The notes beneath the pieces were generated by a model. It did not search any database, was not told the origin of the DNA, and saw nothing but the letters and a program-made list of their open reading frames with translations. From NCBI RefSeq assembly GCF_021533835.1, contig NZ_JAKFYQ010000001.1, positions 191,001 through 255,000 on the forward strand: a stretch of DNA of 64,000 nt. The letters are read 5' to 3'. Of the stretch, positions 6,465 through 34,009 are shown in pieces (position 1 is the stretch's first letter; every line of letters starts with the position of its first letter). The position numbers and the translations under genes are program-made. This stretch comes from Synechococcus sp. Nb3U1 (GTDB taxonomy: Bacteria > Cyanobacteriota > Cyanobacteriia > Thermostichales > Thermostichaceae).

Positions 6465-7052
6465 CTAAAAGTTAGATTCACTGTTCAGGCGAGGCGGTTG
6501 CTGCTTCAGGTGGCGGAGAAACTCCCTAAGCTCCGCATCGGTTAATTGGTGGCGGGATTTTTTGTGAAAGCGCTTTTCCAAGAATTCTCGCCCTTCTTTG
6601 GCACTCCAGCCGATGCGCTGCAGTTCCACATCTGTTTGGGCAATGATATCGGAAAGATCATCCATATCTGTTCCAGATTCCATCAACCCCGGCAGTCTTG
6701 AGGAGGGAGTAGGGGTTGTTTGAATAGGGGCTGGAATGGGCTCAGGGGGAATCGGCAGGGAGCTTGTGTGTCCGTTGGCTAAATCGGGATTTGGCAGATA
6801 AGCAGCTCTTCCAGATGGCTCTATTCCCAAACCCAGGGGCGTTGAGGGGCGACCCAAACCCGCGTGGTTCAAAGCACGTTTGATCGCGGCATCTTCAGCT
6901 TCTTCAACCGTATTGGATCCAGCGATACCACTGCCCAACACTGTGTTGTTCACCATCACCTGCGCCTTGACGATGTAAATCCCCTCTTCCACACGCAACA
7001 GATCCGTGAGCAAACTGCCCATGGGGTATCGATCTCGAAAGTGTTGAATCAT
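6465..7052 (-). CDS. Conserved cyanobacterial protein of unknown function
   Basis: 195 residues. The N-terminal ~70 residues (MIQHFRDRYPMGSLLTDLL... IVKAQVMVNNTVLGSGIAG... VEEAEDAAIKRAL) read as a mixed alpha/beta domain in which a strand pair is followed by a helix rich in Glu and Ala, reminiscent of double-strand-break-annealing or dsRNA-binding-like folds; that is only a shape impression. A proline-rich linker (about 75-135) follows. The C-terminal ~50 residues (DIIAQTDVELQRIGW then GREFLEKRF, KKSRHQLTDAELREFL) look like a compact helical domain that I recall from other cyanobacterial hypothetical proteins. Start ATG at 7052. It is transcribed away from the TPR gene at 7366. I cannot assign a function. 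Confidence 0.7.
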   Translation of the reverse strand: MIQHFRDRYPMGSLLTDLLRVEEGIYIVKAQVMVNNTVLGSGIAGSNTVEEAEDAAIKRALNHAGLGRPSTPLGLGIEPSGRAAYLPNPDLANGHTSSLPIPPEPIPAPIQTTPTPSSRLPGLMESGTDMDDLSDIIAQTDVELQRIGWSAKEGREFLEKRFHKKSRHQLTDAELREFLRHLKQQPPRLNSESNF

Positions 7053-18552: not shown

Positions 18553-18583
18553 AACACTATTGCTTAACGCTAGCTATAGTGTT
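18553..18583. promoter_or_regulatory. Inverted repeat upstream of the ParA-type gene
   Basis: AACACTAT (18553-18560) and ATAGTGTT (18576-18583) are perfect inverted arms with a 15-nt spacer, ending 28 nt before the ParA start codon. The arms are spaced about two helical turns apart, as expected for a dimeric repressor or partition-protein site. The rest of the 326-bp gap 18286-18611 holds the probable promoter (TATAAA near 18543) and no gene. Confidence 0.55.
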
Positions 18584-18611
18584 ATGGAACGGACTAGGAG
18601 GGGATCAACTC

Positions 18612-19412
18612 ATGTCTAGCAGAACGGCGCTTGTCGTCACCGTTGCCTGTTTGAGTGGGGGATCCGGCAAAACCACAGCCGCCCTCAACTTGGCCACCAT
18701 GCTGGCGGATCATGGCAAAACCTTGGCCATCGATTTCGACCCTCAGGGTAATTTAAGCCAGTGGATGGGCTGGACGAATCTATCGGAGTCGGCCACGATT
18801 GCTGAGACCATTTTGCCAGGGGCGGATCGGGTTCACATCACTGAAATCATTCGCGCTCCCCTGAATGAGGATCGCCAGGAGCGGCTTTGGCTGGCCCCCA
18901 GCGATTACAGTCTGTCGCGGGCCATGGATGCGATTGTCATGGAACCGGGGCGGGAACTCTTTTTGAAGCGCGCCCTACGGCCCATCTTGTCCGATTATGA
19001 CTTTTTGGTCATCGATAGCCCTCCCTCGAAGGGCTTGCTCACCTACAACAGCATTCTCAGTGCCGATCTCCTGGTGGTGCCCACCGAATGTACCCAAAAG
19101 GGGGTGATGGGGGCCTTGAGCACCCTAGTTTTGCTCAAAGAATTGGAGGAGCTGGACTTTCATGTGCCCAAGTTTTTGGGGGTGCTGCCAACACGAGAGC
19201 AATGGGCGGGCAACAATCGCACCAAAATGTCACGGGCGGCAGTGGAAGCTCTAACAGAAATGATGCAAGGGATCCCAATTTTTACCCCGGTGCGGCAAAG
19301 TACAGTGGTACAGCAAACCAACAGCATGGGCTGGTCGCTGGCGGAATCTGGGGAAGAAGTTTTGGCTCAACCCTATCGCGAGGTCATCGAGGCTGTGTTG
19401 GAGGCTCGCTGA
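18612..19412 (+). CDS. ParA/MinD-type ATPase lacking the signature lysine
   Basis: 266 residues from ATG 18612, chosen because AGGAGGGG ends 8 nt before it; a GTG at 18579 is upstream in frame. The P-loop reads LSGGSGKTT at residues 14-22: the catalytic Walker A lysine (K20) is there, but the signature lysine of the ParA family (K in KGG.GKT) is Ser15. Switch I IDFDPQGNLS and Walker B FLVIDSPPS are normal, as is LLVVPTECTQKG. ParA ATPases dimerise on DNA and position plasmids, chromosomes or protein cargo. From memory, the carboxysome-positioning McdA ATPases also lack this lysine. The stop is 1 nt before the next gene, a probable partner. Confidence 0.85.
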   Translation: MSSRTALVVTVACLSGGSGKTTAALNLATMLADHGKTLAIDFDPQGNLSQWMGWTNLSESATIAETILPGADRVHITEIIRAPLNEDRQERLWLAPSDYSLSRAMDAIVMEPGRELFLKRALRPILSDYDFLVIDSPPSKGLLTYNSILSADLLVVPTECTQKGVMGALSTLVLLKELEELDFHVPKFLGVLPTREQWAGNNRTKMSRAAVEALTEMMQGIPIFTPVRQSTVVQQTNSMGWSLAESGEEVLAQPYREVIEAVLEAR

Positions 19413-19413
19413 C

Positions 19414-20274
19414 ATGGCCACTCCCAAAAAGCCCCCCAAGAAAAAGCTGCCCACCGGCCCTACCAAGGCGGATTTGCTCTTGCGCATGGGGGTCAGTCAG
19501 CAAACGGGTGAAGCACTCCCTTTGGAGGAGGTTCCTGCACCCTCTGAAGCAACCCCAGTAGCTACTTCCCCGCTATCACCATCAGAGCCTAGAGTTTCCG
19601 AGCAGTCGCCTATCTCCCCAACAGCTATCCCTTCGCCCGAGCCTGAGGATCCACTGCCGGAGCTGGATCCCCTGCCACAGCCCTCTGCCCCGGATCCTCC
19701 CAAACCCATAGAGGTTGCTGCCTCTGTTGCGCTCCCACCCGCCGCTGCACCTGTCGAGTCTACCAAACCAAAACCCATTGAACTCGAAGTCAAGCTGCCT
19801 GAGTTGGCTATCTTGCAGGCTGAATTCCTAGCTCCGGCTACGGCCCGTAATGGTAATGGCAACGGTTCCCATACCCATGGCTCTGTTGGGAATGGCTCAA
19901 GCAACGGACAGGTGGCCCCACCCGCAAAGACTCCCGCAGCCTCATCACACTTGCCTGCGACCCAAGCTCGCGAGCCTGCTCCTGCCCTGCCGGATCCCCG
20001 CGATGCTCTAGATGCGCAACTGGGCCTCCAAAAGCTCACCCTCAAGTGTTCTGCCGAGATGCTGGACAAACTGGGATCCCTGCAAACCACTACCGGACTA
20101 CCCGGCGAGATTTTGCTGGAGGTGCTGCTGGATCACTGGGAGCACCTGCCCAAGCCTGTGCAACAGGACTGTCTCATGCAAGCCCACCGCATACGGGTGG
20201 AACGGCTGGTGATCAGCCAAAACCACACCATCGCCACCATCGAGCAGCTTTTGAACGAGCAGAACTTGCTCTGA
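19414..20274 (+). CDS. Probable ParA partner with a ribbon-helix-helix-like C-terminal domain
   Basis: 286 residues, starting 1 nt after the ParA stop, so the two are translationally coupled. The N-terminus is basic (MATPKKPPKKKLPTGP), followed by ~170 residues of low-complexity Pro, Glu, Ala and Ser with a Gly-Asn patch (about 148-170), probably disordered. Near residue 208, LQKLTLKCSAEML, then DKLGSLQTTTGLPGEIL, then LEVLLDHWEHL fit a strand, helix, turn, helix as in ribbon-helix-helix DNA-binding proteins. The last ~45 residues are helical. A basic N-terminus is what stimulates ParA ATPases in many partners. A ParB/ParG-like adaptor is likely; a McdB-like carboxysome adaptor is an alternative, though the C-terminal Trp I recall for McdB is absent. 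Confidence 0.7.
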   Translation: MATPKKPPKKKLPTGPTKADLLLRMGVSQQTGEALPLEEVPAPSEATPVATSPLSPSEPRVSEQSPISPTAIPSPEPEDPLPELDPLPQPSAPDPPKPIEVAASVALPPAAAPVESTKPKPIELEVKLPELAILQAEFLAPATARNGNGNGSHTHGSVGNGSSNGQVAPPAKTPAASSHLPATQAREPAPALPDPRDALDAQLGLQKLTLKCSAEMLDKLGSLQTTTGLPGEILLEVLLDHWEHLPKPVQQDCLMQAHRIRVERLVISQNHTIATIEQLLNEQNLL

Positions 20275-29140: not shown

Positions 29141-32100
29141 ATGGGATCCCCACCTGCAGAGGACTCACGGTCTTATCCATTTAACTTCACCATTTCTGGA
29201 TCCCGACAAACGGTGTTGCGGGGGTTGTGGGCTTGGGCGGAGCTGGGCTTACTAACACCAGAACAGGTGCGTTCTATCGCGGAAGCCTATCAACTGGATC
29301 AGCCGGGGGAACTGGCGGCAGGGGAGCAGTCTTCTACGCCAGCCGCCCTTTCAACTCGTGGGATCCCTTCTGGGGCATTGGTACTCGCGGGAATCGGCCC
29401 TGCCTATGTGCTGTGGGGTCTAGCTTTGTTTGGCATTTGTGGCATACACCGTTTTTACCTGGGGCGCTGGCGAACGGGGCTACTTTGGCTGTGTACCTTT
29501 GGGCTGCTGGGCATTGGCCAGGTGATCGACTTGGTGTTGATCCCGCGCATGGTGCAGAAAAAAAATGCGGCCCGGCAGGGCACTCACTCCACTCCGCCCT
29601 CTAAGGACTATGTCCTGCTGTCGCGAACAGCCGCACAACCCTCCCAGGAAGAAGCTACCCCGCAAGCAGGGGGTGAACCCGAAACCCGGACTTCCGGGGC
29701 CAGTCCACCTGTTCCCGTAGCATCCTTACCACCTTCTTGGGCAGGTCGGATGCTGCAAAACCTGCTGGCAGAGCTGAGCGTGCGCTGGCTATTGGTCTTG
29801 GGGCTGTTTTTGGTGGTGGTGTCGTCGGGGGTATTGGCGGGTAGCCAGTGGGAGCAATTTTCCCCAACCGGACAATATGCGGTGCTTTTAGCCTATACCG
29901 CTGCTTTTGGGGCCGGGGCTTGGTGGGCACATCAGCAAGAAGGATTGCGCCTAACCGGCCAAACCCTGGAAGCGATCGCTCTGCTGTTGTTACCGGTGAA
30001 CGTGTGGGCGTTGGATGGCCTCAACATCGCCTGGGGGATCCGCGGGGTTGCGCTGGGGCTGCTGGTGGGGATCCCATTGGCGGCTTGGGGGCGGGTGCGG
30101 GCTTCTGGATCAGGGGCGGGCTATGCCTTTTACAGCACTTTGATGAATTTCTTGGCGCTCTCTGGTTTGCACGTGCTGTGGGGGTTGGGGCCACTGGGGA
30201 TCACCTACCTGGGCATTGTCAGCACGGTGGTCTACACCTGGAGTCGCCGGTCTCTGGCCCTACGGGGATCCAAGCTGTGGCTGTTGGGGGCTGCCGGATC
30301 CCTGTTGGTTCTGCGGGGGCTGCTCTCAGGGCAGATGCAGGTATCGCAGTTGGGGTTGGCGGTGGCTCTATTGGGTTGGTTGATGGGCGAGTGGCAAGAG
30401 CCGGGATCCCTACCCGCAGAGGAGGTTGAATCTATCGAGTCTTCTGTTCCCGTTAGCGGGCCGGAGGCCTTATCCAGAATACCTTCCTCAGCATCGGTAG
30501 AAACGGGAACTCCATGGGCCAGTACCGGGCCCGCCCTACCAAGCTGGGTCTCTCAAGATTGGGGCCGGGCTGGATTGGTGCTGCTGGTGCTGGGCGGGCT
30601 GTTGGCCTGGAGTGGCTTGTCGGATCCGGGGGCTATACCCGCGGCAGAGAGTCCTTCCATACGTTCTGCTGTCGCCAACGACTGGCAGTTGTTGGGCATC
30701 AGCCTGTTGGGAATCCATTTCTTGGTTAGGCGTTTGAGCCATCGCAAGCAGGTTGTGGATTTGGCACTGCTGTTTTTGCTGGGTTTGGAGACCATCTGGG
30801 TATTTTGGCAGGTGTTGCCGGGGAGCTGGCAGTTGGGGGTCTTGGATCGGCTGGCAGGCTGGTTTGGCCCCATCTTTTTCCCTTGGGGAGTGCTGGGCTT
30901 GGCCCTGTTGCCCTACGAGGGGCTGTGGTTGGGTTTGGCGGCTCGCTGGCAGCAAAGGACGCAGGATGGTGAACCGGGCTTTTCTGTTTTGGTGAGGCCG
31001 ACGGAAGGGTTGGTGCTGGGGTTAGGGGGATCCCTGTTGTTGCTGAGCTTGCCCAATCTGGCGATTCGTTTTTGGCATCTCCTTTTGGGTACTGGGATCC
31101 TGGCCGGGTGGCTGTGGTATCAGTCCAAGTTTAGGACGGCTGCCGAAGAGGAAGGAGTCGAAGATTCAGAGCCCTCGCTTGCCCAACGCCCTTTTTGGGT
31201 ATTCCTGACCCATGCCTATGGGGTGGCAGCCCTTCTGGCCGGGATCCACTGGCTGCTGCCGGAGTTGGAGGGGTCAAGTTGGGGGGTGATTTTGCTGGTG
31301 CTGGCTCTGCTGGAATGGGCAGGGGGAGTGGCTCTTTACCGGTGGCCAGTGGGACAGGGTTCGTCGCGCACGCGGGCGGGAGGCCCATGGTTGCAGGTGT
31401 GGCAGCAGAGTGCTGGTTGGCTGGGCCTAGTGTTGGCTCTGGCCAGCTACGGAAACTTTTTCATCCAACGCTTTCACTTTTTGGGCAGTTTCCTGGGGTA
31501 TTGGCTCCCTGATCGCGTTAGCGGGACGGAGTCCATTGAATTGGATTTTCACGGTTGGCTGTGGTTGGGGGTGCCTCTCACTTTGACGGTGGCTCAGGTG
31601 CTGGCTTGGCCGTCGCTGGAGTTTATGCCACTGTGGCTGCAATCGCGTCAGCGGGCCGGAGGTCTTTCTTGGCGACAGGGGATCCCCGCTCGAGAATCCT
31701 TTGGCTCTCTGACTCTTGCCTCCATCCTGATGTCGCAGCTTCTCACCCTCGGCGTACCGGGGAGCAGTCTGTGGGGGCTGGGGCTAGGGGCCTTTTTGAT
31801 AGCAACTCAGGTGTGGCTATTTGCTCGCCTGCCCATTGCGCTGCTGACGGTGACTTTTGGGCTAGGGTTTGGCATTGAGGCCATTAACCAGGCTTTTCCG
31901 GCGCTGACGGAGCAGGAGTGGCTGGCTGCTTTGTCGGCACTGCTGTTGCTTTTGAGTGGCTGTCGCTATGGCGTTAAGCACCTCTCCACAAGGACTCCTT
32001 CCCGCTGTTGCGAACGGCTACAAGAATCTTATCGGTCGGCCCTCGATGGGTTGGGTACTCTGCTGGGGTTGGTGCTTCTGCTGGCGATAACAACAACCCT

Positions 32101-34009
32101 CTTCACCCCCCCATATCAGACCGTCACAGGGGCCCTCCCTTTAGCAACTGGAGGGATCCTCTTGGCGATTGGGCTCCGACTTTGGGTGGAGGTTACTCCA
32201 GCGCTAGGGATCCCCAGGACGGAGTCCTTGCCCACTTCTCAGGACAGGGACACAGAAGAAGGTGAAAGAGGGGATGCGATCCCACCCAGAGAAGTTCTAG
32301 ATGTAGAACCTATAAGCCTAGATGGGCTGCTTTACGGGCTGGGTTGGGCTTTGGAACTGCTGGTAATCAGCGCTGTGCTGTGGCGGTGGCCGGGATCCCC
32401 ACCGATTGTGCCGGAGATTCTCTCCCTAGTGGCGACGATTAACCTGGGTTTAGGGATCCTGTTTTGGATTGGGCCGGAAAGGACGGTATTCCTCAAGGCA
32501 TGGGGACAACCTTGGCGGCGACTGACTAGTTTCTGGGCGGGGCCACTGATTTATGGCTTTTTGGGCTGGCTGGGATCCCATCTGGAGTGGGATGAGCTGA
32601 CGGGGCTGGGCAGCTTAGGCTTTTCCATCATCCTGTTGGGGTTGGGCCGCCGACAACAGTGGCCCCAGAGACGGTTTCACCTCGGGGTTCTGGGGGCGCT
32701 AGGGGTATCGCTGGCCGCCTACGAAAGCTGGATATACTTCCTCAGCCAGCAATCCGGCGGCTCCTTGGGGGATGGGTTGGTGCTCATCAGCTTGCTGGGG
32801 TTGGTGCTGGCGCTGGCTTACCGACTTTGCCCCCGTTGGATCGCCGACTACTTATACTTACCCACCTCTGCAGCACCCTGGCGGAGTTGGCTAGGCAGGA
32901 TTGGTTACCTCAATTGGGGTTTGGCCAGCCTTGGTCTGTTGCCCGCCCTTTTGGATCTCAGCGCGTTGGGAGAGATCCTCTGGCTGCTGACGGGATCCGG
33001 ATTGGCGGCTTATGCCGCGTGGCAAGGGAGAAAATTGGGTGCGCTACTCGTATTCAATTCCGACACGCTAGGACTCCGTCCCGCTGACGCAACCCCAGAA
33101 CCCTCCTCACACCCCGCGACCCCAGAAAACGAGGTCAATTCTCCAAAGACGCTTTCAGAAGCTGCTTGGGTACAATGCTTCTGGAGTTACCTGAGTGCTC
33201 TTCAATGGGCAGGGATCCTGGCTGTGGCCGTGTACCTATGGCTACCGGTGGATCTGGGGATTTGGGGGGGATCCCTAGCCTGTGGGTTGGGGCTGGTGTA
33301 CTATTTTCTTCCCTGGCAACGGTGGGGCTGGTGGCCGGATCCCTGGCAAAATACGGCCCTGGTCTTACCGATTACGGTCATGCTCCTAACGGCCAGCGAA
33401 ACCAACAGCAGCAACCTTCTACTTGGGGCGGTGTACTACGCCTTCCTATCCATTGCGCCAAGGGGGCACTGGCGCGAGCAGCGCTCCCAGGTGCGTCTGG
33501 GCTATGTCAGCTTGTTTTTGAGCAACTGGATCCTCCTGGATTACGGCTGGCAGCAGGAGTGGTCTTCGCTCACCCTCTATGCCCTACCGCTGGTGGGATC
33601 CCTGCTCTACGTGGCCCAGGTGGATCCCGGACTGCAACAGGCTAGCGCTCGTCAGAGTCGGCATGGGCTACGCTCTTTTTCCTCGGGCCTTTTGGTTCTG
33701 GTGACGTTGATCGAAACCCACGGGCAACTTTGGGCGGGGTTCTGGCCAGTGGGATTGGGATTGGCCCTGGGGCTACTGGGGTTGGCTCTGCGGGTGCGGG
33801 CCTATCTGTTTATGGGCACCCTCAGCTTTGGGTTGGGAGTCCTGCGGCAGGGGTGGTTGCTGGTGACGGCCTACTCACTGTTGTTGTGGGGAATCGGCAT
33901 TCTCTTGGGGCTGCTCTTGATTTGGGTAGCAGCCAACTTTGAACAGCGACGGGAACAACTCAGAGCCTGGCTAGACTCCTGGTTAGGGCAGTTGCAGAGC
34001 TGGGAATAA
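29141..34009 (+). CDS. Giant polytopic membrane protein with an N-terminal TM2 domain (DUF2157-like)
   Basis: 1622 residues, mostly hydrophobic segments. Residues about 20-57 (RGLWAWAELGLLTPEQVRSI) may be a small soluble start; about 82-142 is a TM2-like domain (LFGICGIHRFYLGRWRTGLL, then LCTFGLLGIGQVIDL). After a linker come dozens of membrane helices in blocks (WLLVLGLFLVVVSSGVLAGS, GQYAVLLAYTAAFGAGAWWA and others), as in the DUF2157-type proteins of cyanobacteria. Soluble linkers near residues 430-460, 955, 1035-1060 and 1310-1345 contain copies of a dispersed DNA repeat. No enzymatic motif is seen. It has no obvious partner, and rodA follows 146 nt downstream. Function unknown. Confidence 0.85.
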   Translation: MGSPPAEDSRSYPFNFTISGSRQTVLRGLWAWAELGLLTPEQVRSIAEAYQLDQPGELAAGEQSSTPAALSTRGIPSGALVLAGIGPAYVLWGLALFGICGIHRFYLGRWRTGLLWLCTFGLLGIGQVIDLVLIPRMVQKKNAARQGTHSTPPSKDYVLLSRTAAQPSQEEATPQAGGEPETRTSGASPPVPVASLPPSWAGRMLQNLLAELSVRWLLVLGLFLVVVSSGVLAGSQWEQFSPTGQYAVLLAYTAAFGAGAWWAHQQEGLRLTGQTLEAIALLLLPVNVWALDGLNIAWGIRGVALGLLVGIPLAAWGRVRASGSGAGYAFYSTLMNFLALSGLHVLWGLGPLGITYLGIVSTVVYTWSRRSLALRGSKLWLLGAAGSLLVLRGLLSGQMQVSQLGLAVALLGWLMGEWQEPGSLPAEEVESIESSVPVSGPEALSRIPSSASVETGTPWASTGPALPSWVSQDWGRAGLVLLVLGGLLAWSGLSDPGAIPAAESPSIRSAVANDWQLLGISLLGIHFLVRRLSHRKQVVDLALLFLLGLETIWVFWQVLPGSWQLGVLDRLAGWFGPIFFPWGVLGLALLPYEGLWLGLAARWQQRTQDGEPGFSVLVRPTEGLVLGLGGSLLLLSLPNLAIRFWHLLLGTGILAGWLWYQSKFRTAAEEEGVEDSEPSLAQRPFWVFLTHAYGVAALLAGIHWLLPELEGSSWGVILLVLALLEWAGGVALYRWPVGQGSSRTRAGGPWLQVWQQSAGWLGLVLALASYGNFFIQRFHFLGSFLGYWLPDRVSGTESIELDFHGWLWLGVPLTLTVAQVLAWPSLEFMPLWLQSRQRAGGLSWRQGIPARESFGSLTLASILMSQLLTLGVPGSSLWGLGLGAFLIATQVWLFARLPIALLTVTFGLGFGIEAINQAFPALTEQEWLAALSALLLLLSGCRYGVKHLSTRTPSRCCERLQESYRSALDGLGTLLGLVLLLAITTTLFTPPYQTVTGALPLATGGILLAIGLRLWVEVTPALGIPRTESLPTSQDRDTEEGERGDAIPPREVLDVEPISLDGLLYGLGWALELLVISAVLWRWPGSPPIVPEILSLVATINLGLGILFWIGPERTVFLKAWGQPWRRLTSFWAGPLIYGFLGWLGSHLEWDELTGLGSLGFSIILLGLGRRQQWPQRRFHLGVLGALGVSLAAYESWIYFLSQQSGGSLGDGLVLISLLGLVLALAYRLCPRWIADYLYLPTSAAPWRSWLGRIGYLNWGLASLGLLPALLDLSALGEILWLLTGSGLAAYAAWQGRKLGALLVFNSDTLGLRPADATPEPSSHPATPENEVNSPKTLSEAAWVQCFWSYLSALQWAGILAVAVYLWLPVDLGIWGGSLACGLGLVYYFLPWQRWGWWPDPWQNTALVLPITVMLLTASETNSSNLLLGAVYYAFLSIAPRGHWREQRSQVRLGYVSLFLSNWILLDYGWQQEWSSLTLYALPLVGSLLYVAQVDPGLQQASARQSRHGLRSFSSGLLVLVTLIETHGQLWAGFWPVGLGLALGLLGLALRVRAYLFMGTLSFGLGVLRQGWLLVTAYSLLLWGIGILLGLLLIWVAANFEQRREQLRAWLDSWLGQLQSWE
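30446..30466 (+). repeat. Dispersed coding repeat, copy in the giant membrane protein gene
   Basis: Matches the family core at 19 of 21 positions in the forward orientation and encodes VPVSGPE in a soluble linker of the 1622-residue protein. Confidence 0.65.
31511..31534 (+). repeat. Dispersed coding repeat, near-perfect copy
   Basis: 23 of 24 positions match the consensus (core GCGTTAGCGGGACGGAGTCC). Encodes RVSGTES between two membrane segments of the giant protein. Confidence 0.75.
31992..32015 (-). repeat. Dispersed coding repeat, inverted copy
   Basis: Reverse orientation, about 20 of 24 positions match. Encodes TPSRCCER in a loop of the giant membrane protein; its GCTGTTGCGA end matches the copy in recG. 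Confidence 0.6.
33071..33096 (-). repeat. Dispersed coding repeat, inverted copy in a linker
   Basis: GGACTCCGTCCCGCT is identical to the copy in rodA. It encodes GLRPADATP in a hydrophilic linker of the giant protein. Confidence 0.7.

Follow-up and report, generated by a model that had tools for sequence, protein, structure and literature searches.

The window, a stretch of 64,000 nucleotides (G000:C1:191001-255000) from a host genome of 3.49 Mb, encodes a two-gene cassette composed of a small ParA-type ATPase (P0001) and a largely disordered partner (P0002) with a ribbon-helix-helix (RHH)-like domain at its C-terminus. The host genome is close to Synechococcus-type MAGs, and its genus is termed Thermostichus-type here, as gene content and relatives suggest. 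The pair is probably a plasmid-type ParA-RHH partition cassette that is now stably established on the chromosome in the Thermostichaceae, and it most likely works in the manner of ParF-ParG or McdAB while being filed as neither. Speaking against a partition cassette are the chromosomal location of the locus and the composition of the nearest experimentally studied family outside its clade, which includes the carboxysome McdA. The original prediction had described the gene pair and an inverted repeat ahead of it, and had read them as either a partition system of unusual design or a positioning system for cargo such as carboxysomes. The overall observation was confirmed; of the interpretation, the partition system of unusual design and, with moderate confidence, the RHH tail were retained, and carboxysome positioning was not.

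The features of the locus are as follows, with positions counted in the window:
18553..18583, no strand assigned: inverted repeat AACACTATTGCT-N7-AGCTATAGTGTT with a perfect 8+15+8 core, a candidate operator and/or centromere to which the partner would bind.
18596..18603, plus strand: Shine-Dalgarno-like AGGAGGGG ahead of the ATPase ATG at 18612, read directly.
18612..19412, plus strand: P0001, an SGG-type Walker ATPase of the ParA/MinD family (266 aa), assigned from Pfam AAA_31, solved structures, the tree and dN/dS.
18654..18674, plus strand: Walker A motif SGGSGKT (residues 15-21), with Ser15 at the position of the ParA signature lysine.
19098..19100, plus strand: Lys163 (in CTQKGV), a candidate compensating lysine, equivalent to Lys151 of 6NOO in the alignment.
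19414..20274, plus strand: partner P0002 (286 aa), with a basic N-terminus, a disordered linker and a C-terminal RHH-like domain.
19426..19461, plus strand: conserved basic motif KKPPKKKLPTGP (residues 5-16), reading KKKLPTGP or KKKLSTKP in relatives, plasmid ones included, and a candidate ATPase-contact peptide.
19495..19989, plus strand: hypervariable linker rich in Pro, Ala and Ser (residues 28-192).
19990..20271, plus strand: C-terminal domain (residues 193-286), predicted to hold an extended segment, two RHH helices and a long C-terminal helix.

The mechanical open reading frame of the ATPase spans 18579-19412, with the conserved start further in, at ATG 18612. Its TGA occupies 19410-19412 and the ATG of the partner lies at 19414, leaving the 1-nt gap and the 286-residue partner that had been predicted. 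The predicted LSGGSGKTT motif, with serine at the signature-lysine position, was likewise found (CLSGGSGKTT). P0001 matches the Pfam families AAA_31 (E=2.5e-34) and CbiA (2e-13), which places it in the ParA/MinD superfamily of Walker ATPases, and its best solved relatives in the PDB are 6NOO, 6NON and 6NOP, filed as McdA; Soj and ParF were also matched. It is a small ParA without an N-terminal HTH and with a partner gene immediately 3′, as in type Ib systems. Plasmid location, the further mark of that type, is missing, as the contig of the pair has ordinary chromosomal neighbors.

The signature lysine of the KGGxxK[ST] motif is absent from P0001, which has SGGSGKT and Lys163 instead. Among the ParA-like proteins collected in the analysis (25 of the SGG/AGG type and 31 of the KGG type), a lysine aligned with Lys151 of 6NOO in 25/25 SGG/AGG proteins vs. 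0/31 KGG proteins. From this alignment, the missing lysine of P0001 appears to be compensated by Lys163. In the work on 6NOO, Lys151 is said to stand in for the signature lysine in the ATP sandwich dimer. Several SGG/AGG ParAs are followed by ParB-like partners: loci L027, L030, L031 and L033 hold cyanobacterial SGGVGK or AGGVGK ParAs with Spo0J/ParB-like partners, constituting pairs without the signature lysine. The original prediction had noted that McdA also lacks this lysine; the likeness to P0001 is real, but because the absence is common to plasmid ParAs, including ones with ParB-like partners, it is no carboxysome marker. An absent ParA signature lysine is therefore unusable for calling McdA systems, since SGG/AGG enzymes, plasmid ones included, have their lysine elsewhere.

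The partner has a tripartite architecture. Residues 1-26, which include the KKPPKKKLPTGP motif, carry a net charge of +6, and residues 27-195 are composed of 21% P, 15% A, 11% S and 4% Q with 18% bulky hydrophobics, in line with the basic N-terminus and the long low-complexity region described earlier; residues 196-286 look globular. Identity among genus members is 85-94% for residues 1-27 and 193-286, against 30-42%, with numerous gaps, for the linker. AlphaFold2 modeling of the C-terminal domain from five sequences (mean pLDDT 78) gave an extended stretch, helices at 22-35 and 39-48, and a long helix at 55-93. In a Foldseek search of the PDB with this model, the top eight matches were all known RHH folds, namely, Reg576 of plasmid p576, CopG, MazE-mt1 and ParG, with E-values of 0.29-5.8, none individually significant; several CopG chains aligned at 1.7 Å over 38-39 residues, with target-based TM values of 0.70-0.74. 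The ribbon itself is not formed in the monomer model. Weak sequence matches also point toward RHH proteins (yiiF, E=0.29; CopG_antitoxin, E=0.0096), and phmmer found no match of P0002 in the PDB. The divergent L005 domain, modeled by AlphaFold from a single sequence at lower confidence (pLDDT 69), did not retrieve RHH proteins by Foldseek. Taken on the model and its structural neighbors, the C-terminal domain is quite likely an RHH fold. The earlier call of an RHH-like tail is thus upheld by the eight top matches and weakened by the lack of a significant E-value and by the L005 result. The partners at L006 and L009 have an 8-residue insertion, FTSALRNN, near the C-terminus. At L004 (~6830-6900), the partner has no in-frame ATG beside a CCCCCCC run, probably through a homopolymer error in this low-coverage MAG.

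The inverted repeat predicted upstream was located at 18553-18583, with its core reading AACACTAT-N15-ATAGTGTT and its end 28 nt ahead of the ATPase start. It overlaps TATAGT, a -10-like element read by eye in the promoter region. At up to 3 mismatches, the window holds one instance of the 8+15+8 core pattern vs. 0.05 expected. Five Thermostichus-type genomes keep the palindrome block ahead of the gene but not the sequence further upstream; at L008, the right arm is kept better than the left. In the same place in two other genera, G006 (L011) has TTCTACAC-N15-GTGTAGAA, an 8+15+8 repeat of different sequence, and G221 (L044) has TAAACAAGAA-N14-TTCTTGTTTA, a 10+14+10 repeat that also differs in sequence. 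When the sequences were dinucleotide-shuffled, 2, 2 and 0 of 300 shuffles contained a repeat of this kind (gap 13-16). A palindrome of the same geometry was not found at L012, L036 and L037. Such a change of sequence at constant geometry from genus to genus is consistent with a putative DNA-binding partner that co-evolves with the palindrome. The host genome has one exact copy of the palindrome, and no genome-wide set was found: the other matches had 3 mismatches and were fewer than those of a reversed-pattern control. A search for iterated centromere-like repeats beside the operon found none, only the one conserved palindrome.

Upstream of the pair is an aspartate-aminotransferase-like gene, and downstream of it is prfC (release factor 3); the genes beyond these two are ordinary metabolic ones. 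The order aminotransferase-pair-prfC is found at L003 and L006, and partner-prfC at four further loci of the genus. Elsewhere in the window, a 1622-aa open reading frame at 29141-34009 has TM2 as its only recognized domain. Between genus members, the dN/dS of the ATPase is 0.02-0.07 and that of the C-terminal domain of the partner is 0.06-0.14; the pair is therefore being maintained, and in the host family it is chromosomal and under strong purifying selection. In G001, a complete genome in a single contig, the aminotransferase and prfC flank only a relic (L097; G001:C1, ~827 kb; locus positions 740-1170), in which most of the ATPase is deleted and a 3′-end remnant is left. The partner frame of this relic has 85 aa, with the N-terminal motif joined directly to the C-terminal domain, the linker gone and the RHH loop shortened. 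The pair is thus dispensable, at least in G001.

Close relatives were identified in 8/390 genomes of the cyanobacterial class. Seven of these belong to the Thermostichaceae (five of the six genus members, among them the window genome, plus two other genera). The eighth is from outside the family, and its relative lies on a contig of 416 kb that also carries transposases and umuCD-like genes. Two further relatives are carried by plasmids, namely, AP025020 (Calothrix Cal7716_p2, 218 kb; 69% identical) and NC_014533 (Gloeothece verrucosa Cy782201, 879 kb; 64% identical). In each case the next gene encodes a partner whose N-terminus is KKKLPTGP-like and whose C-terminal domain is related, and on both plasmids the ATPase of the pair is the sole ParA-type partition gene; neither plasmid has a ParB_N match. 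The family is read as a DNA partition family mainly because of these two observations, and the earlier phrase "partition system of unusual design" is supported by these closest relatives outside the Thermostichaceae. Each plasmid has a second AAA_31 match, to a KGGAGR-type protein on the former and to a Wzc-like kinase on the latter; at L112 (AP025020, ~92.6 kb), the KGGAGR-variant ATPase domain sits in a protein of about 464-472 aa that is not a partition ParA. The linkers of the plasmid partners (L037, 8797-9696; L036, 8829-9446) are made up of short Ser/Thr/Glu/Pro-rich repeats (e.g., QDSSLPE), and those of the chromosomal partners are Pro/Ala-rich. A scan of viral contigs found no relative.

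In the tree, P0001 belongs to a clade of 10 rows, two of which are plasmid-borne; this clade is sister to an SGGQGK clade, each with 100% UFBoot. The SGGQGK clade contains S. elongatus McdA (L013, with a partner of 152 aa ending in Trp) and a plasmid ATPase of G. citriformis, so that P0001 falls outside the clade of S. elongatus McdA. Because the tree is midpoint-rooted and was flagged for long branches, only clade membership was taken from it. Over 258 residues, the 6NOO chain matches at 100% identity the ATPase encoded by pP742402, a plasmid of Gloeothece citriformis PCC 7424, and the partner structure 6NOY is identical to the product of the next gene on that plasmid. Since the 6NOO chain is plasmid-encoded, the match of P0001 to a PDB entry named McdA is no evidence for a carboxysome function.

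It is very unlikely that the pair is an McdAB-like carboxysome positioner in the Thermostichaceae, even though P0001 shares the missing signature lysine with McdA, its clade is sister to the one that holds S. elongatus McdA, and its partner combines a charged N-terminus with extensive disorder. Trp is the sole residue invariant in all McdBs, and β-McdBs have an acidic C-terminus with Trp, for which Tyr can substitute in S. elongatus McdB (PMC11321042). P0002 has no C-terminal Trp and zero aromatics in its last 20 residues, and with its 4% Q, the linker is not glutamine-rich. McdA is described as having a large mid-protein extension (PMC8262871); P0001 has 266 aa vs. 258 in 6NOO, and its alignment with S. 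elongatus McdA contains small insertions only, the boundaries of the extension not being defined in it. No carboxysome genes were recognized among the neighbors scanned, the complete sister genome G001 has lost the pair, and plasmid ParAs commonly lack the lysine as well. Furthermore, all six Thermostichus-type genomes have a different ParA/coiled-coil pair (G000:C2:510869-512184; L002, L084, L101), which consists of a KGGTGKS ATPase and a coiled-coil partner ending in MPPYLLD, beside a glgC-like gene. The KGGTGKS ATPase was found in all six genus members, G006, G007 and G027, and the coiled-coil partner, read in the genus members, G006 and G007, ends in aromatic-x-LD after acidic residues (MPPYLLD, MPPYMLD, MPSFMLD or MPTFLLD). 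As a lead, this second pair, with Tyr or Phe for Trp, would be a stronger carboxysome candidate than P0001-P0002.

Canonical ParABS of the Spo0J/ParB HTH type was rejected because no ParB domain was found in P0002 by either Pfam or NCBIfam. An unlikely alternative is that the captured pair segregates or positions the chromosome, or one region of it, in place of an absent ParB/parS. In its favor, the host genome has no convincing Spo0J-type ParB (the single ParB_N match is a 95-aa frame), and the pair combines strong purifying selection on a chromosome with a partner predicted to bind DNA and a palindrome that is conserved. The single full palindrome in the genome argues against it, as do the loss in G001 and the distance to dnaN (346 kb in G004, a separate contig in G000); the origin could not be placed in G004, where the sampled GC skew was too weak. 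It is also quite unlikely that the pair positions some other, protein-based cargo and uses the RHH-like domain for dimerization only. ParA-family systems for protein cargo are common (PMC8262871) and the linker varies freely, but the promoter palindrome, with its altered sequence and constant geometry from genus to genus, fits a DNA-binding partner, and the replicons of the plasmid relatives have no other ParA-type partition candidate.

A plasmid-type partition cassette of this kind would probably act as follows. The ATPase would bind nucleoid DNA as an ATP-bound dimer, with Lys163 in the role of the missing signature lysine. The partner would dimerize through its C-terminal RHH domain and bind the promoter palindrome, so repressing its own operon, and on plasmids this binding would mark the DNA as cargo. 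Its basic KKKLPTGP tail, carried on a long flexible linker, would touch the ATPase and trigger ATP hydrolysis, and the cargo would then follow the ATPase gradient by a diffusion-ratchet. A broader and rather doubtful proposal is that domestication of SGG-type plasmid cassettes for partition took place on cyanobacterial chromosomes at least two times, once yielding the carboxysome McdAB of S. elongatus and separately the RHH-bearing pair, which would now position its own chromosomal or cellular cargo in the Thermostichaceae. P0001-P0002 is a rare pair near the McdA clade whose partner is predicted to retain a DNA-binding domain, and the step from moving plasmids to moving organelles thereby becomes testable.

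Among known systems, type 1 McdA/McdB of S. elongatus (PMC6328274) resembles the pair in having no signature lysine, a lysine at the 151 equivalent and an adjacent partner gene, but its McdA is about 36% identical to P0001 and belongs to the other clade, and its McdB ends in Trp152 and binds carboxysomes, whereas P0002 has no C-terminal aromatic. The plasmid pairs of Calothrix and Gloeothece verrucosa share a 64-69% identical SGGSGK ATPase, adjacent genes, the same N-terminal motif of the partner and the same C-terminal domain (about 29% identity); they differ in being plasmid-borne, in their Ser/Thr/Glu-rich repeat linkers and in an upstream palindrome that is different or imperfect. The "McdA/McdB" pair of G. 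citriformis (Cyanothece) PCC 7424 (6NOO/6NOY), encoded on pP742402, has an SGG Walker A together with Lys151, and a small partner with a basic N-terminus and a C-terminal domain. Its ATPase is about 33% identical and falls in the sister clade, while the C-terminal domains of the 6NOY-type partner and P0002 are weakly alike (hhalign E=4e-4, probability 35%), a suggestive resemblance only. ParF-ParG of TP228 (type Ib) likewise consists of a small ParA without an N-terminal HTH and a partner with a mobile basic N-terminus and an RHH C-terminus, and ParG was among the Foldseek matches of the C-terminal model of P0002. ParF has the signature lysine, ParG is 76 aa long without a long linker, and TP228 has iterated centromere repeats.
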